Source: Sporomusaceae bacterium
Lineage (GTDB): Bacteria > Bacillota_C > Negativicutes > Sporomusales_B > UBA7701
Assembly: GCA_022839045.1 (NCBI GenBank)
Contig: JALHDI010000118.1
Span: 1 to 18,083, forward strand
Direction: 5' to 3'
Length of the DNA: 18,083 nucleotides
Part shown: positions 1,232 through 18,083 of the stretch, one piece after another
Numbering within the stretch: position 1 is the first letter of the stretch
Layout of the letters: each line of letters starts with the position of its first letter
Program-made: the position numbers and the translations under genes
Notes under the pieces: model-generated
The model's database searches: none
Seen by the model: only the letters and a program-made list of their open reading frames with translations
What the model was told of the DNA's origin: nothing

Positions 1232-2344
1232 ATGGATCCCCGCATCATCACGCTCGCCCATAACCTCATCCACTACTCCGCCGCCCTCGCTCCGGGCGAA
1301 AAACTACTCATCGAGACGGTCGACGGGGCTCTCCCGCTCGCCAAGGCACTCGTCGACGAGGCCTACCACGCCGGCGCCGTCCCCTTCCTCAGCCTCAAGA
1401 GCAGCCAGCTCCTCCGCGCCCTCCTCCGCGGCGCCGCGTCAGAGCAGCTTGCCTTAGCCGGCGAATGGGAGGCGGCGCGCATGAAGGCGATGGACGCTTA
1501 TATCGCCATAAGGGCCAGCGACAATATCAGCGAGATGGCCGACGTTCCCGCCGACAGGCTGCAGCTTTACCAACAGAACTGGGTCAAGCCCGTCCACCTC
1601 GACATCCGCGTACCCAATACCAAGTGGTGCGTTCTCCGCTACCCGGGCCCCTCCATGGCCCAACTGGCCGCGATGAGCACCGAAGCGTTCGAGGATTTCT
1701 ATTTCCGCGTCTGCACCCTCGACTACGCCAAAATGGCCGTGGCCATGGATCCCCTGATCGCCCTCCTCGGGCGCACAGACCGGGTGAGGATAACCGGTCC
1801 GGGCACCGATCTCGCCTTCTCCGTCCGCGGCATCGCGGCCGTCAAATGCGCCGGCCGCCGCAACATCCCCGACGGCGAGGTGTACACCGCGCCGGTGAGG
1901 GACTCCGTCAACGGCGTTATCAGCTATAACACCCCCGCCGTCTACCAGGGCTTCACTTATGAGAACATCCGCCTCGAATTCCGGGACGGCAAAATCGTCG
2001 GCGCGACCGCCAACGACAGCGAAAAAATCAACAAAGTCTTGGACACCGATGACGGCGCCCGCTACATCGGCGAATTCGCCCTCGGCGTCAACCCCTATAT
2101 CGAACGGCCGATGAAGGACACCCTCTTCGACGAAAAAATCAGCGGCTCCTTCCACTTCACTCCCGGCAACGCTTACGAAAAAGCCTTCAACGGCAATAAA
2201 TCCGCCATCCACTGGGATTTGGTCTGCATCCAAACCCCGGCTTACGGCGGCGGCGAAATCCGTTTCGACAACATGCTGGTCCGCAGGGACGGCCGATTCG
2301 TGCCCGAGGAGCTGCAAGGGCTAAACCCGGAAAACCTTACATAG
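1232..2344 (+). CDS. M29-family aminopeptidase (thermophilic metalloprotease family)
   Basis: This is a 370-residue cytosolic metallo-aminopeptidase of the AmpS/AmpT/PepS type, which removes N-terminal residues from peptides. The C-terminal half carries the expected metal-ligand segments: GEFALGVN, then the SGSFHFTPGNAY region, then SAIHWDLV. These supply the Glu and His ligands and the HxD-type ligand pair. The N-terminal half is the usual GEKLLIET-type domain. An upstream in-frame ATG at 1211 overlaps the ribosome-binding site AAGGAGG (1218-1224), so ATG 1232, seven nucleotides downstream of it, is the better start. The gene stands alone and ends 21 nt before a terminator shared with speE. 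The family assignment is firm; peptide specificity is unknown. Confidence 0.93.
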   Translation: MDPRIITLAHNLIHYSAALAPGEKLLIETVDGALPLAKALVDEAYHAGAVPFLSLKSSQLLRALLRGAASEQLALAGEWEAARMKAMDAYIAIRASDNISEMADVPADRLQLYQQNWVKPVHLDIRVPNTKWCVLRYPGPSMAQLAAMSTEAFEDFYFRVCTLDYAKMAVAMDPLIALLGRTDRVRITGPGTDLAFSVRGIAAVKCAGRRNIPDGEVYTAPVRDSVNGVISYNTPAVYQGFTYENIRLEFRDGKIVGATANDSEKINKVLDTDDGARYIGEFALGVNPYIERPMKDTLFDEKISGSFHFTPGNAYEKAFNGNKSAIHWDLVCIQTPAYGGGEIRFDNMLVRRDGRFVPEELQGLNPENLT

Positions 2345-2365
2345 GCGGCCGTTGATAAGTAAACT

Positions 2366-2396
2366 AAAAGCTGCCGGCTGATAGCCGGCAGCTTTT
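2366..2396. terminator. Bidirectional Rho-independent terminator
   Basis: AAAAGCTGCCGGC (2366-2378), loop TGATA, then GCCGGCAGCTTTT (2384-2396): a perfect 13-bp stem with A and T runs on opposite flanks. It serves the convergent M29 peptidase and speE, whose stop codon begins at 2400, only 4 nt away. Confidence 0.9.
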
Positions 2397-2397
2397 G

Positions 2398-3231
2398 CTA
2401 TTTGAACAGTTCCTGGATGAACGTCGGCAGCGCGAAGGCGCTCTTCTGGAGCTCCCTGTTCCAGTAACGGGTTTTAAGGTCGGGGAGCTTGGCCGTATCG
2501 ACGGCCAGCGGGTCGTGCTTCTTGGAGCCGATGGTGAAGCAGTGGGTGCCGCCCGGGTAGAGGGGGATCTGAGCCAGATAGGTTCTGGTGATCGGGAAGA
2601 GGGCTTCGATATCCTTTCTGAGGCGCTTAAGAAGCGGCTGGTGATAAAAGGGCGACTCGGTCTGCTGCACGAACAGGCCATCAGCCTTGAGCGCCTTGAA
2701 GCAGTCGGCGTAGAATTTGCCGGTGAACAGCCCTTCCCCCGGCCCGATCGGGTCGGAGCAGTCGACGATGATGACATCATACATATCCGTGGCCTGAGCC
2801 ATATGGTCGATGCCGTCGCCGATCTTCAGGCGGAACTTGTCATTGCCGTTTATCAGCACGGTGCTAATCTCCGGCAAGAACTTCTTGCACACCTCGACGA
2901 CCGCCCCGTCGATCTCCACCATCTCCACCCGTTCCACTCCGGGATGGCGGACGACCTCCCGCGCCGTGCCGCCGTCGCCCCCGCCGATGATGAGCACGTT
3001 CCGGGGATTGGGATGGACGAACATCGGTACATGGGCGATCATCTCGTGATAGATGAACTCGTCGAAGATGCTGGTCTGAAAAACGCCGTCCAGCGCCAGC
3101 ATGCGGCCGAACTCGAACGTATCCAGCACGGCGATTTCCTGGAAATCGGACTTGCCCATGTAGAGCGTCTCCTTGACCCTGGCGCTCAGGCTCAGGTCCT
3201 TGGTCTGGAATTCGCTGTACCACAGTTCCAT
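2398..3231 (-). CDS. speE: Spermidine synthase (polyamine aminopropyltransferase)
   Basis: It transfers the aminopropyl group of decarboxylated S-adenosylmethionine to putrescine, giving spermidine, in the cytosol. The 277-residue protein has the N-terminal beta domain followed by a Rossmann methyltransferase-like fold. GGGDGGTAREV at about residues 83-93 is the dcSAM-binding glycine loop, EID near 106-108 binds the nucleoside, and VDCSDPIGP (156-164) carries the catalytic Asp. YHEM at 61-64 is also typical. Length is normal for bacterial SpeE. ATG 3231 is preceded by GAGGAGG with about 10 nt spacing. No speB, speA or speD neighbour is present, so the pathway genes must be elsewhere. Confidence 0.97.
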   Translation of the reverse strand: MELWYSEFQTKDLSLSARVKETLYMGKSDFQEIAVLDTFEFGRMLALDGVFQTSIFDEFIYHEMIAHVPMFVHPNPRNVLIIGGGDGGTAREVVRHPGVERVEMVEIDGAVVEVCKKFLPEISTVLINGNDKFRLKIGDGIDHMAQATDMYDVIIVDCSDPIGPGEGLFTGKFYADCFKALKADGLFVQQTESPFYHQPLLKRLRKDIEALFPITRTYLAQIPLYPGGTHCFTIGSKKHDPLAVDTAKLPDLKTRYWNRELQKSAFALPTFIQELFK

Positions 3232-3411
3232 GTGCAGAAGCCTCCTCGAAATATTCTCTCTGTAGCTTGCTCCGTACTGTTAAATTTAGCATAATTTGCT
3301 GTCTGGGGAAAGAGCTTGGCAAAAAAATCTCCATCCTTCCTTCTCCGCTTTATTGTTGCCATTAAACCGTTTTCGTACCCGCAGGGTCAGTTTTGGGACC
3401 CTTTCTCCCGA

Positions 3412-3440
3412 GCATCAAATCCCTATTTTTGCGCATAATA
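3412..3440 (+). promoter_or_regulatory. Probable sigma-G (forespore) promoter of the germinant-receptor operon
   Basis: GCATC (3412-3416), 17 nt, then CATAATA (3434-3440) fits the forespore pattern GHATR, 17-18 nt, CATNHTA, with the last -35 base mismatched. It lies 27 bp upstream of the first germination gene. Bacillus ger operons are classically sigma-G transcribed, so position and motif agree. The call rests on motif and context only. Confidence 0.5.
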
Positions 3441-3467
3441 GCTTAAGTAACCAAGCGAGGTAATATT

Positions 3468-8978: not shown

Positions 8979-10557
8979 CTAAAATTCGTCTTCCCAGGAA
9001 ACGAACGGCTTCTCGACATCCACCATCGCGTTCACCATCAGCTCGACAAGGCCGCCGTAGATGATGTTGTACTTGTCGCGGAAGCCGTAGTATTCCATGA
9101 GGGCGTCGCGGGCCGCGCCCTTGCAGTTCGAGCACGGGGCGCAGTAATATTTCGGGATGGCGGGGTCGAGGCAGTCCTTAAACACCTCCAGCACCTGCTT
9201 GGCCTTCATGCGTGATGCCACGCCGTCCCGCCATTCCGGGAAATTCATCGAATTCATCACCGCGAAGCCGCTGCCGCCGCCGCAGCAATAGTTCATCACC
9301 CCGGCGTTCGGCATCTCGCGGAACATCCCCGGCGGCGTGATCGCCTTGAGGACGTTGCGCTGCGGCGTAACGATGCCCATCAGGCGGACCATGTTGCACG
9401 GGTCGTGGAGCGTCACCGGGAAATTGTTCTTGCTCGGGTCGAACTTGATCGCCCCGCTGGTCACGATCTGCTCCAGAAGCGGCAGGCAGCCCTCGCGGGG
9501 GATGGCCAGGTCGCCCACGCACACCCGGTCGGCGATCTCCACCAGCGCCTTGGTAGCATGACCGCACTCGCCGACCACAATCCGCCGCACCCCCAGCCTC
9601 TTGGCCGCCTGCACCTGGGCAACGGCAACGCGGGCGAACTGGAAGTCGTCGTACCATGTGCCGTAGTTGACCCCTTCGTAACCCATCGATTCGCTCGACA
9701 GCGTCCAGTCGATGCCGGCGGCGTCGCTCGGGCCAGGATACGTACTCCCCGGCGTTATGGATGAGAAGGATGTCGGCGCCCTTTTTGTCGATCGGTATCT
9801 TGATCCTGCGGCCGATTCTCTCCTCAATGTCGTCTTCGATGAACTCGATGGTGTCGAGGAACGCGGCCGGCGTCATGCCGGTCGACGATCCGGTCTGCAG
9901 GTGGCGCATCGTGCCGCCCTTATGCACGCCCTCGGAAGCGATCCCCAGCTCCTGGCTGAATATTTTCCGCAGTTCGCGGTTCATCAGGCCGTTGTCCACC
10001 CCCACCGGGCAGGTGGCGGCGCAGCGGCGGCAGATGGTACAGCGGTAAGTCAGCTCGGCCAGGCGATAAATCGTTCGCCAGTTGAGCTCGACATCGGCGC
10101 CGACGAAGCCGCCCAGCAGCCGCCCCTCGGGGGTGAAATAGCGCTGGTACAGCTTGCGCAGCAGCTCGGAACGGTAATTGGGGCGGTATATGTCCTGGCG
10201 GCCGCTCTCGACGTAAATGGGGCAGGCCTCGTTGCAGGTGTTGCAGCGCACGCAGTAGTCGGTGCTCAGCGAGGTCGGCTGCATGAACGTCCAGTTGTTC
10301 TCCCTGGTGAACAACTTCTCCAGGCCGCGCAGGAACTTGTTGACAAGCTCCTCCTCCGCCTCCTTGCTCGCCGGCGGCGTCAGGGCGAGAGCCGAAAAAC
10401 CGTCGAGGGAAAGATCGTACTTCTCCTTCCAGTCCGGCTTGGCCGGCTTGAAAGCCTTCTCCTCGTGGCCGGGGACCGGGTCCAGGTCGGCCGTCGTCAG
10501 CGGGCACAGCGCCTCGGCCGGTTTGGCGATATCCTTCAGACGTACTTTATGCTTCAT
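8979..10557 (-). pseudogene. HdrD/DsrK-like iron-sulfur electron-transfer protein, frameshifted
   Basis: The intact relative would be a membrane-associated iron-sulfur protein of the heterodisulfide-reductase D type that exchanges electrons with the neighbouring membrane cytochrome. The N-terminal part (10557 to about 9727) has two 4Fe-4S motifs, CVRCNTCNEACP (Cys 102, 105, 108, 112) and CTICRRCAATCP (Cys 173, 176, 179, 183). The C-terminal part, in another frame, has the CCG-domain elements HDPCNMVR, NYCCGGGSG and CAPCSNC. The frame breaks at about 9715-9730, after SWPE and before DAAGIDW. Relatives as I remember them have roughly ten more residues between these motifs, which would mean a short deletion rather than a one-base error. 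ATG 10557 follows the cytochrome gene by 3 nt. The break may be real, an assembly error, or (less likely) programmed. Confidence 0.85.
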
Positions 10558-12186: not shown

Positions 12187-13073
12187 CTAGACCTTGAACC
12201 TTGTCACCGCCGCCTGCTGTTCGCCCGCCATGTTGGCAAGTTCCCGGCTGGACGAGGCGATTTTCTCCAGCGACGCCGACTGTTCCTCGGTCGTCGTCGA
12301 CGCCGTCTGGGCCAGGCCATCGTATCCTTACTGATAACTCTGATCCCCGCGACTGCCCTGACCGTCTGATCGCTGTCGCGTATCAGGCGGCTGGCCGCGG
12401 TCGAAATCTCTCCGGCGCGGCCGGATACTTCTTCCGCAAGCCGGATTATGCTATAGAACGCTTCCCCGGCGGCATTAACCATCCGGGCGCCTGCGCCAAC
12501 TTCCCTGGTACCGTTCTCCATCGCCGCCACCACCTGCTGGGTGTCGGACTGGATCGTACCGATCAGGGCGGTTATCTGCCCGGCGGCCTGCTCCGATTGC
12601 CCGGCCAGCTTCCGCACCTCCTCCGCCACCACCGCGAAGCCCGTCCCTGCTCGCCGGCCCGGGCAGCCTCGATGGCGGCGTTCAAGGCAAGCAGGTTGGT
12701 CTGGCCGGCGATGCTGTCGCCTCTCTTTTCCTCGTGGGTACGGGCGATTGCGACGCCCTTTTCGTCGGTGACGGTGGCGCAATCAAGCTTGGCTTCCTTA
12801 ATAAGAGGCGCAAGCCCCCGCATGACGACGGCGGCGTCTTTGCCCTCGAGCGCCCTGACAAGCTCGGAATGCTTAACGAAGCCGGCGCCGTAATCGGCGG
12901 CCTCTTTCTTATATTATAGGTCTCCAGCAGGCTGTTCAAACCTTCCATGCCTCGCACGGCGTTTTGCTCGTAAGTCTTCTCCATGCTGGCGGAGAAGTAG
13001 TAAACGGCGCAACAACGATAAGCAGGACGATGTATGCCGACGATCTCCCCTTTATCCCGAGCGATCGCCCCAT
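12187..13073 (-). pseudogene. Decayed methyl-accepting chemotaxis protein (deletion plus frameshifts)
   Basis: An intact relative would be a membrane chemoreceptor signalling to CheA/CheW. Read on the minus strand, the pieces are: a start (MGRSLGIKG) with a first membrane helix (SAYIVLLIVVA); a Cache-like sensor piece (MEKTYEQNAVRGMEGLNSLL, then GLAPLIKEAKLDCATVTDEK, ending RTHEEKRGDSIAGQ); the signalling hairpin tip (AGQTNLLALNAAIEAARAGE, FAVVAEEVRKLAGQSEQAAG); and the C-terminal methylation helix (TTTEEQSASLEKIASSSREL) ending at 12187. The sensor is joined straight to the hairpin tip, so helix 2, HAMP and the first half of the signalling domain are missing. The frame changes four times, each a net loss of one base modulo three; one is clearly GGGG reduced to GGG near 12640. 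Non-functional as it stands. Confidence 0.88.
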
Positions 13074-13090
13074 GCTGATGCGCCTCTTTC

Positions 13091-13131
13091 TGTGAAATTG
13101 TTAACACAGTATAAATTTCACAGCTGTGTTA
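13091..13131. promoter_or_regulatory. Interleaved operator-like dyads upstream of the chemoreceptor remnant
   Basis: Two inverted repeats overlap: TGTGAAATT (13091-13099) with AATTTCACA (13114-13122), and TAACACAG (13102-13109) with CTGTGTTA (13124-13131). TGTGAA-ATTG-TTAACA (13091-13106) also resembles a Rex-type or CRP-type site with one half-site mismatch. They lie immediately upstream of the remnant's start at 13073. Probably a regulator-binding region; the regulator is unknown. Confidence 0.4.
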
Positions 13132-16580: not shown

Positions 16581-16614
16581 AAGGAGACATGAAGCTTACG
16601 CTTCATGTCTCCTT
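16581..16614 (-). terminator. Terminator of the Nramp-like gene
   Basis: AAGGAGACATGAAGC (16581-16595) and its exact 15-bp complement (16600-16614) around the loop TTAC. On the minus strand the stem is followed by TTTTT when the stem's own last Ts are counted. It lies 27 nt after the transporter stop. Confidence 0.9.
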
Positions 16615-16640: not shown

Positions 16641-17915
16641 CTACAATCCCAGGCGGCCGAACAGCCATTCCACCAAGTCGGGCGCCACCGTCGCAACGAG
16701 CAACAGGACGGTGAGGACGATTATCAGACCGGCGAACGCCCATGCCACCAGATTATAAAGGGGCGAGTTGCGGTACTTGCCCATGATCTTGGCATTGCTG
16801 GCGATGAGCACCATGAAGATGAGCACCGGCACGAGCAGAATGCCGTTTACCACCTGGGTGGTCAGCATCACGTGGTAAAGAGACAATCCCGGCCACAGCA
16901 CCAGCACGGCGCTCAAAACGATGATGGCGGTATAGAGGCCGAAGAATACCGGCGCCTCTTTGTAAGACTTGCTGATGCCCCGCTCGAAGCCGAAAGCCTC
17001 GCAGATGGCGTAGGAAGTGCTTAGCGGCAGGATGAAGGCCGCGAGCATCGACGCGCCGAACAGGCCGAAGGCGAACAGGAAGGATGCGTATTTGCCGGCC
17101 AGCGGTTCGAGGGCGATCGCCGCATCGGCGGCCGTTTCGATGGGGATATTGTTGACATGGAGGGTGGCGGCGGTCGCCACCACGATGAAGAAGGCGATTA
17201 AACCGGTAAAGAAAGCGCCGACGAGCACGTCCCAGCGTGTGTATGCATACGTTTTGGCGGATATTCCCTTATCGACGATCGTCGCCTGGACATAAAACTG
17301 CCCCCAGGGCGTGATCGTCGTGCCGATGATGCCAATTACCATCAGCAAGTACCCCGGATCGTGCGAAAAGGTGGGCGGCGTGGCCGCTGCGGCCATAACC
17401 TCCCGCCACGGGGGGTCGACGATAAATCCGGAAATGACGTAGCTGAAAAAGGTAAGACAGAGAGCGAAGAACACTTTCTCGATCCGCGAGTAATTGGCCT
17501 TCAGCACCAGCCGCCACACGATAAAAGCGATTACCGGCACCGCGATATAGCGGCTGATCCCGAATATCTCGAAGCTCGTGGCAATACCGGAAAACTCCGA
17601 TACGGTCGTGCCGATGTTGGCCACCATCAGCACCGTCATGGCGAAGAAGGTCCATTTCACTCCGTACCGCTCGCGGATGAGGTCGGATAGGCCGCGGCCG
17701 GTCACCGCTCCCGTGCGGGCGGAGATCTCCTGGACGACGGTCAGCACGAGGATGCTGATGAACAGTACGAACAGCAGGCTATAACCGTACTTGGCCCCGG
17801 CCGCGGAATAGGTGGCGATGCCGCCGGCGTCGTTGTCAGCGAAAGCGGTGATTATCCCCGGGCCCATGACGGCAAGGAAAAGAACAAGTCTCTCCTTCAT
17901 TTTCTTTATATCCAC
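16641..17915 (-). CDS. Nramp-superfamily divalent cation transporter, NRAMP-related Mg2+ transporter-like
   Basis: A 424-residue, 11-helix LeuT-fold transporter in the cytoplasmic membrane. The opening MGPGIITAFADNDAGGIATY aligns with the Nramp helix-1 motif, but DPGN reads DAGG (29-32): the Asp is kept and the Asn is lost. Helix 6 reads IGTTITPWGQ (197-206) where Mn/Fe transporters have IGATVMPH: Ala becomes Thr199, the metal-ligand Met becomes Thr202, and His becomes Trp204. Loss of the soft Met ligand is a trait of NRAMP-related magnesium transporters, and the M-box riboswitch in the leader supports Mg2+ as substrate. GTG 17915 follows AAGGAGG with 8 nt spacing; an internal ATG at 17900 lacks such a site. 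A plain MntH annotation would therefore probably be misleading. Fold certain, substrate inferred. Confidence 0.93.
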   Translation of the reverse strand: MDIKKMKERLVLFLAVMGPGIITAFADNDAGGIATYSAAGAKYGYSLLFVLFISILVLTVVQEISARTGAVTGRGLSDLIRERYGVKWTFFAMTVLMVANIGTTVSEFSGIATSFEIFGISRYIAVPVIAFIVWRLVLKANYSRIEKVFFALCLTFFSYVISGFIVDPPWREVMAAAATPPTFSHDPGYLLMVIGIIGTTITPWGQFYVQATIVDKGISAKTYAYTRWDVLVGAFFTGLIAFFIVVATAATLHVNNIPIETAADAAIALEPLAGKYASFLFAFGLFGASMLAAFILPLSTSYAICEAFGFERGISKSYKEAPVFFGLYTAIIVLSAVLVLWPGLSLYHVMLTTQVVNGILLVPVLIFMVLIASNAKIMGKYRNSPLYNLVAWAFAGLIIVLTVLLLVATVAPDLVEWLFGRLGL

Positions 17916-17939
17916 GCCGGCCGCCTCCTTCCGTCGAAA

Positions 17940-17969
17940 AGAAAGACCTTCCCTGCGGAAGGTCTTTCT
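17940..17969 (-). terminator. Riboswitch-controlled terminator upstream of the Nramp-like gene
   Basis: On the minus strand AGAAAGACCTTCC (17969-17957), loop GCAG, GGAAGGTCTTTCT (17952-17940), then TTTCG: a perfect 13-bp stem with a T-rich end, 10 nt before the ribosome-binding site. Its 5' arm (GACCTTCC, 17964-17957) can instead pair with GGAAGGTC (17993-17986), which directly follows the M-box core. That alternative is an 8-bp antiterminator. Confidence 0.85.
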
Positions 17970-17985
17970 GGGTTGATAAAAGTGC

Positions 17986-18083
17986 GACCTTCCCTACTCG
18001 TCGAGTTTTAGCACTGCATAACGTAGAGCACACTCCTCAGCCACATTAGGTAGAACCTTACGCCGGTAATACCTGTTATACCC
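17986..18083 (-). promoter_or_regulatory. M-box (ykoK) Mg2+ riboswitch, 3' part; 5' part beyond the window
   Basis: The minus strand contains the conserved 3' core of the M-box in the right order: GGGTATAACAG, then GCGTAAGGT, TAATGTGGCTG, and finally ATGCAGTGCTAAAACTC followed by GACGAG. The B. subtilis mgtE M-box as I recall it has GGGTCAACAG, ACATAAGGT, TTAATGCAGCTG and ATACAGTGCTAAAGCTC at the same positions. The full element is about 165 nt, so its 5' strand of P1 and first conserved segments lie to the right of 18083. Expected behaviour: high Mg2+ stabilises the fold, locks up the 3' P1 strand and lets the terminator at 17940-17969 form, turning the transporter off. Confidence 0.92.

Follow-up and report, generated by a model that had tools for sequence, protein, structure and literature searches.

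An Nramp-related transporter gene under an M-box riboswitch, very probably encoding a Mg2+ importer, in a Sporomusaceae bacterium

The pairing of an M-box riboswitch with an NrmT-type transporter is already published, having been described in 2014 (PMC4072509). The accessible text of that work, by Shin et al. 2014, reports Nramp-related genes that are preceded by an M-box, most of them from Clostridia and Deltaproteobacteria. Mg2+ uptake was shown by complementation, the class was named NrmT, and a MgtE-N-like gene (in the following, the partner gene) was placed beside most of its members. In the case of C. acetobutylicum, Ca_c0685 and Ca_c3329 are described there as M-box-controlled, with uptake of Mg2+ (for Ca_c3329 only at higher Mg2+). 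In the case of Acidobacterium capsulatum, the NrmT has no riboswitch and is described as behaving mainly like a Mn2+ transporter. A structural view is given by Ramanadane et al. 2022 (PMC8806188), in whose accessible text the structure of EleNRMT is presented together with transport of Mg2+ and Mn2+, not of Ca2+, and without H+ coupling. The NRMT signature is defined there as DxxG-TxxA/T, the T224A mutant was left without detectable Mg2+ transport, and the helix-6b histidine positions are occupied by Trp and Asn. A literature search for ‘M-box riboswitch’ together with ‘Negativicutes’ found no paper for that particular pair of terms.

The locus described here was compared with these systems within the window, i.e. 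the whole stretch of 18,083 nucleotides that was analysed. It is a one-gene unit, in which an M-box riboswitch is followed by nrmT. Its features are the following:

16641..17915, minus strand: nrmT (Nramp-related Mg2+ transporter, NRMT), 424 aa, GTG start, from the ORF, family matches and the tree.
17820..17831, minus strand: codons of the helix 1 metal site, D29-A-G-G32 (DxxG), by alignment to D55..G58 of EleNRMT.
17304..17321, minus strand: codons of the helix 6 metal site, T199-T-I-T202-P-W204 (TxxT-P-W), by alignment to T224..A227-P-W229 of EleNRMT.
17986..18083, minus strand: 3' part of the M-box aptamer RF00380 (model positions 71-169 of 169), 65.8 bits, the 5' part lying beyond the window edge.
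17986..17993, minus strand: 5' strand of the antiterminator, GGAAGGTC, overlapping the 3' strand of the aptamer closing helix (17994-17990).
17957..17964, minus strand: 3' strand of the antiterminator, GACCTTCC, which doubles as part of the terminator 5' arm.
17940..17969, minus strand: intrinsic terminator with a 13-bp stem (17969-17957 with 17952-17940), loop GCAG and a T-rich tail.
17924..17932, minus strand: ribosome-binding site GGAAGGAGG ahead of the GTG start, by direct sequence reading.
16582..16613, minus strand: hairpin AGGAGACATGAAGC-GTAA-GCTTCATGTCTCCT followed by a T run, just 3' of nrmT, by direct sequence reading.

The last of these, which was absent among the terminator-like sites listed by the terminator scan, is a probable terminator that would leave nrmT as a single-gene transcript. 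The next gene on the same strand encodes a DUF2935 protein and is followed by one for a ThiF-family protein (ORFs and Pfam). Elsewhere on the minus strand of the window, at 8979-10557, a FeS/CCG-domain reductase-like gene is split across two overlapping frames, with Fer4_8 in one and CCG in the other, by either a frameshift or a sequencing error. At 12204-13107 a chemotaxis-receptor-like gene (identified by eye) lies in several overlapping short frames, perhaps another frameshift. In the related locus L221 an open frame is found at the position of this gene and reaches the end of the stretch compared.

The product of nrmT matches the Pfam Nramp family with 323.7 bits. Among the NCBIfam models, it scores 74.3 with the generic Nramp model (cut-off 50) and 151.3 with the MntH model, whose cut-off is 430. 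EleNRMT, from Eggerthella lenta (PDB 7qia and others), was the best match among solved structures with 391 bits, the runner-up reaching 93. Identity to EleNRMT amounts to 47.5% over 406 columns, versus 25.9% to DraNramp, 25.1% to BfraNramp and 23-26% to the four canonical Nramps compared.

The first-pass annotation of this DNA had stated that the protein lacks the transition-metal signature of Nramps, and the alignments bear this out. The canonical motifs DPGN and A/CxxM-P-H are absent from the window protein; D29-A-G-G32 (DAGG) replaces the former and T199-T-I-T202-P-W204 (TTITPW) replaces A-x-x-M-P-H. The site residues D29, G32, E107, T199, T202, W204 and Q354 correspond to D55, G58, E133, T224, A227, W229 and Q379 of EleNRMT, with identity at 6 of the 7 positions compared (the shared D, G, E, T, W and Q). 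The exception, T202 versus A227, makes the window protein TxxT where EleNRMT is TxxA, and lies inside the published A/T range, so that the NRMT signature is present in D29/G32 and T199/T202. The conserved Gln of helix 10 is kept as Q354. Both proton-pathway histidines of helix 6b are lost, with W204 and V209 at their positions (V209 by direct reading), the second of which is Asn in the accessible description of EleNRMT. T199 is the residue to watch, because its EleNRMT equivalent is the one altered in T224A. With canonical Nramp/MntH proteins such as DraNramp and BfraNramp, the window protein shares the Pfam family and the Asp, Glu and Gln of the site; it differs from them by its identity of about 25%, by the replaced DPGN and AxxMPH motifs and by its clade.

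This last point was obtained from a wider set of sequences. A contig scan with six peptide patterns gave 185 relatives, and the analysis was continued with the best 80 of them; these are therefore close relatives and not the whole family. L053 has no full ORF and was excluded from the protein counts, leaving 79 loci with a readable gene. The signature DxxG-Txx(T/A/S) was found in all 79 readable loci among the best 80 of 185, with T in 67, A in 9 and S in 3. In a 96-row tree, made by a quick search with SH-aLRT support only and with EleNRMT and DraNramp on long branches, the canonical Nramps (15 rows, support 100) separate from the NRMTs (81 rows, support 100). Both the window protein and EleNRMT fall on the NRMT side, and the placement suggested by the earlier annotation as a check thus puts the window protein outside the canonical MntH clade. 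It groups with L001 and L002 (3 rows, support 97), then with L003 (99), and the clade of seven around it (97) consists of the window, L001, L002, L003, L004, L006 and L014. The tree omits L102, L103, L109 and L110 (no metal site), L106 (a duplicate), L096 (translation too long), the paralogue fragments L101 and L108 and duplicates of known nrmT genes among L081-L110; 5 of 35 Nramp matches had no locus.

Rfam scans detected an upstream M-box in 52 of the best 80 loci of 185. TxxT genes were found with an M-box in 48 cases and without in 16, the contig being too short in 3; the corresponding numbers are 4, 4 and 1 for TxxA and 0, 3 and 0 for TxxS. TxxT versus TxxA was rejected as a marker of M-box control, as each of the two types occurs with and without an M-box.

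Some further variation was observed in this set. Positions matching E133/W229 of EleNRMT read E/W in 63 of the 79 loci, D/Y in 10, E/Y in 3, N/W in 2 and Q/W in 1, so that they tend toward joint change, D/Y being one group of mostly Clostridia. Three Thermogemmatispora genes carry TxxS, outside the published A/T; no M-box was found and no partner recognised at these loci. A gene for a TerC-family membrane protein lies upstream of the M-box and nrmT in L001, L002, L006, L014, L221 and L222, identified by Pfam for L001 and L002 and by a similar N-terminus for the other loci.

Regarding the leader, the first-pass annotation had recognised the conserved 3' core of an M-box and proposed a search with the Rfam model. 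This search (cmscan) confirmed it, with RF00380 matching at 18083-17986 (minus strand) with 65.8 bits against a gathering score of 44 and an E value of 1.5e-12. The 98 aptamer bases inside the window agree with the RF00380 consensus. With the M-box (ykoK leader) the window shares the 3' core and a terminator-type platform, and no difference was noticed in the visible part. The 5' half lies past the window edge, and a complete aptamer was seen in relatives only. Two of these, G048 and G046, belong to the family of G001, encode proteins 96% and 94% identical to the window nrmT product, and were aligned with the window by blastn over about 4.9 kb. Both have a complete aptamer directly upstream of nrmT (L216, 164.5 bits, and L217, 162.8 bits, respectively), and full-length aptamers are found at the same place in L001 (164.5 bits), L002 (165.1 bits) and L003 (164.3 bits). 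Over the aptamer stretch, the window sequence is almost the same as that of kin whose aptamers are complete (L001, L002, G048). Just 5' of the aptamer, six aligned relatives show a promoter-like TTGACC (TTGATC in L014) and then TATAAT, and G048 likewise has a TTGACC/TATAAT-type promoter. A chance RNA match was rejected on the basis of the window score and the complete aptamers in relatives; altogether, neither the protein signal nor the M-box signal is plausibly due to chance.

Other forms of the aptamer were also found among the relatives. In Pelosinus (L007, L008, L013) a tandem pair of M-box aptamers lies upstream of the operon of partner and nrmT. Shortened or poor M-boxes were seen in L014 (3805-3927, 68.2 bits, with the aptamer middle missing in the alignment) and in L022 (2350-2502, 48.5 bits), reflecting either assembly error or a real loss of sensing.

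After the aptamer, GGAAGGTC (17993-17986) is complementary to GACCTTCC (17964-17957) within the terminator 5' arm, forming an 8-bp antiterminator. Because GACCTTCC belongs to this arm, terminator and antiterminator are mutually exclusive. Judged from the sequence, aptamer and expression platform of the window leader thus compete with each other. Similar hairpins are present in aligned relatives. In the leaders of the window's clade plus the two nearest genomes, a terminator was found in 8 of 9, all 8 with an antiterminator of 8-9 pairs. Over all leaders tried, a terminator was found in 13 of 15 by a simple rule whose script missed L217 and L008, though hairpins are visible there by eye. An antiterminator of at least 7 pairs accompanied it in 11 of these 13, L058 and L012 having only 5 and 2 pairs, respectively. 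When the 17-base aptamer tail was shuffled 2000 times, an antiterminator equal to that of the window arose in 0.4% of cases. The same test on 12 other leaders with a terminator gave 0.5% to 56%, and the antiterminator argument therefore rests on recurrence and not on single values.

With its 13-bp terminator and the 8-bp antiterminator that competes with it, both following the aptamer, the window leader is most naturally read as an M-box switch of the usual kind, which would turn the gene off at high Mg2+, Mg2+ being the ion presumably sensed. At high cytoplasmic Mg2+ the aptamer would close and hold the strand GGAA(GGUC), the terminator hairpin would form and transcription would stop. At low Mg2+ this strand would pair with the terminator 5' arm instead, and nrmT would be read. 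NrmT would then import Mg2+ as its main ion through a widened site formed by Asp29, Thr199 and Gln354, with no Asn and no Met. The hydration shell would probably be partly kept and H+ coupling absent, as reported for EleNRMT. The parts of this scheme taken directly from sequence are the family, the site residues, the aptamer (its 3' half in the window, the whole in kin), the terminator and the antiterminator.

Other metal routes were looked for in kin genomes, which are mostly MAGs. Canonical Nramps with DPGN and AxxMPH are present in five of six (G001, G002, G004, G005 and G006), and Mn/Fe uptake therefore has other candidates there. In G003 no Nramp match besides its nrmT was found, so that a wider role for NrmT is possible in this genome. 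CorA homologues occur in all 12 genomes searched (G001-G006, G009, G010, G012 and G046-G048), and nrmT need therefore not be the sole Mg2+ route. In the same set, MgtE was above the cut-off in none of the 12 and MgtA in one (G048). The nrmT M-box was the only M-box found in five of the six genomes G001-G006, G003 having a second.

Taken together, the best explanation, which we consider highly likely, is an M-box-switched Mg2+ importer of the NRMT family encoded as a one-gene unit; the protein itself is very probably a Mg2+ importer from this already described family. The alternative of a normal MntH-type Mn2+/Fe2+ transporter in which some residues have drifted is, as a family placement, refuted by the MntH model score, the site residues and the tree. 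Canonical MntH was rejected on these grounds together with the low identity to canonical Nramps, about half of that to EleNRMT, and the conservation of the signature in every readable relative. The Pfam match, the passing generic NCBIfam score and the names given to relatives speak for it, and we assign it practically no probability. Indeed, for some of the 120 best relatives listed the sources give ‘Divalent metal cation transporter MntH’ or ‘Mn2+/Fe2+ NRAMP family transporter’ as the name, yet the window protein stays far under the cut-off of the MntH model, and the earlier warning against a default MntH annotation was a fair one.

A different question is whether a protein of the NRMT clade could mainly take up Mn2+, or several divalent ions, with the M-box only tying its expression to Mg2+ status. 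EleNRMT carries both Mg2+ and Mn2+ (PMC8806188, accessible text), and the A. capsulatum NrmT fully rescued a Mn2+ defect but needed low millimolar Mg2+ to rescue a Mg2+ defect (PMC4072509, accessible text); the single Nramp match of G003 fits this as well. However, the same source describes the A. capsulatum gene as lacking an M-box, and the M-box-controlled NrmTs of C. acetobutylicum as giving Mg2+ uptake and no complementation of a Mn2+ transport defect. As separate canonical Nramps are also present in five of the six kin genomes, we regard a mainly Mn2+-transporting or mixed role as quite unlikely. Regarding the switch, the fit of the 98 visible bases to the consensus and the near-identical stretch in kin with full aptamers argue against an M-box that has lost its response to Mg2+ through decay or retuning. 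The poor aptamers of L014 and L022 suggest that loss may happen, and the aptamer 5' half of the window lies beyond its edge; a decayed M-box here is nevertheless very improbable. What the first-pass annotation observed is confirmed, and its interpretation as a Mg2+ importer under an M-box is very probably correct.

In comparison with the C. acetobutylicum NrmTs, for which Mg2+ import is shown in the accessible text of PMC4072509, the window gene is likewise Nramp-related and under an M-box. As compared by description, the Ca_c0685 operon has a split MgtE-N-like gene, whereas the window has nothing between M-box and nrmT. No gene-sized ORF was found in this interval, and MgtE_N was absent from the ten window proteins scanned with Pfam. 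The MgtE_N-like neighbour is a common NRMT trait that is not strictly defining, and it is absent at the window. A partner-sized ORF (401-474 aa) lies just upstream of nrmT in 65 of the 79 readable loci (best 80 of 185), as called by ORF length and position. Five ORFs of such size were set aside, L048 and L063 being other proteins by Pfam and L052, L066 and L073 judged by eye; the ORF of L079, which was counted, is placed on a very long branch and is perhaps not a true partner. Two upstream ORFs were scanned with Pfam, and both (that of L008 and that of L005, a locus on a contig too short to show an M-box) consist of PRC, MgtE_N and CBS. In 44 of the 52 M-box loci a partner-sized ORF separates the M-box from the gene; in the other eight (L001-L004, L006, L014, L043 and L058) there is none. 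Together with the window, the latter occupy three separate places in the tree.

A search for MgtE_N covered 12, 33 and 3 genomes (48), ten of them with a partnerless M-box-nrmT locus (G001-G008, G046 and G048). In nine of these ten, an unlinked protein of the PRC-MgtE_N-CBS type is encoded elsewhere; in G003 no such MgtE_N protein was found, though nrmT is present. Four of the nine (G002, G004, G007 and G008) consist of PRC, MgtE_N and CBS by Pfam, and the other five were assigned by their MgtE_N match and similar N-termini. Among the genomes with an operon partner (G009-G045), a sign of a further partner-type gene was seen in one of 37 (G029). These partner counts are not independent, because the genomes are related and mostly MAGs. 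In two further genomes, G033 and G035, a second MgtE_N match has an ORF start without the PRC part and resembles MgtE itself (by eye).

The case of G029 is L167, where positions 1779-3465 hold an M-box, mgtC (Pfam) and then, at the contig end, the start of the further PRC-MgtE_N-type gene (by eye). Possibly, the sensor-like protein may thus also travel with MgtC. In L127-L131, L224, L225 and L226 a standalone PRC-MgtE_N-CBS-type protein is encoded in an era/ybeY-type neighbourhood (by eye), and in L128 this unlinked gene adjoins a CNNM/CorC gene (Pfam).

The unlinked proteins of G001, G002, G004, G005 and G006 form a clade of their own (support 99), and the operon partners of Sporomusaceae and Desulfosporosinus lie within a separate 38-row clade (99). 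A relocated operon partner was therefore rejected for the window's clade, the unlinked proteins falling outside the clade that holds operon partners. Clostridium pascui (G008; L058, L133) presents a different picture: nrmT and the PRC-MgtE_N-CBS partner lie on separate contigs, each with its own M-box. This partner is sister to that of L059 (100), i.e. a relocated operon gene. A third M-box in C. pascui precedes a full MgtE.

As a tentative idea, which we find doubtful, NRMTs may need a cytoplasmic PRC-MgtE_N-CBS sensor as a gate, the window clade having lost the operon sensor and a distant copy, found in kin next to a CNNM/CorC-type gene, acting in trans. For this speaks the contrast between nine of ten partnerless genomes, from three tree places, and one of the 37 whose operon has kept the partner, as well as the split of nrmT and partner in C. 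pascui, both preceded by an M-box. Against it, G047 has the protein but no nrmT match at E 1e-50, and G003 shows the reverse. If the idea were true, one sensor would couple Mg2+ import by an NRMT and CNNM-type transport.

A second M-box was also observed in related genomes, upstream of a two-gene ABC operon. The first gene of this operon encodes a double permease of 580 aa with distant similarity to nitrate/taurine permeases, the second an ATPase that carries AAA_assoc_C as its C-terminal domain. The permease was searched at E 1e-50 in 300 genomes from the class of G041, which is a Propionispira, so that the class is presumably Negativicutes; at most 4 candidates were scored per genome. It was found in 24 of the 300 genomes, and the exact motif GPSGSGKST follows it in 21 of the 24 loci. 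A same-strand M-box lies upstream in 17 of the 24 (L193, L194, L176, L195-L201, L204-L206, L208, L209, L213 and L215), at 122-196 bases from the permease start in 16 and at 541 in L215, where the permease is partial. Low scores were obtained in L195 (79.1 bits) and L199 (101.3 bits). In the two Propionispira genomes G041 and G042, the only M-box found is the one at the ABC operon and not at nrmT. Literature searches combining M-box, ykoK or magnesium riboswitch with ABC transporter found no description of such a pairing in the text they gave access to, and the Mg2+ importers that the accessible text of PMC4072509 names do not include ABC transporters. The pairing of M-box and ABC operon looks newer than that of M-box and nrmT and may be worth a separate study.

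In conclusion, the known picture of Mg2+ import is unchanged by this locus, and the partnerless operon, a modest variation on a known class, is the only unusual point found. The locus is a case of a riboswitch revealing the substrate of a transporter whose relatives carry misleading database names (MntH, Mn2+/Fe2+ transporter). It also documents M-box-nrmT without the MgtE-N-like partner in a lineage close to Sporomusaceae, and this natural separation of nrmT and partner makes the question of the partner's role testable.
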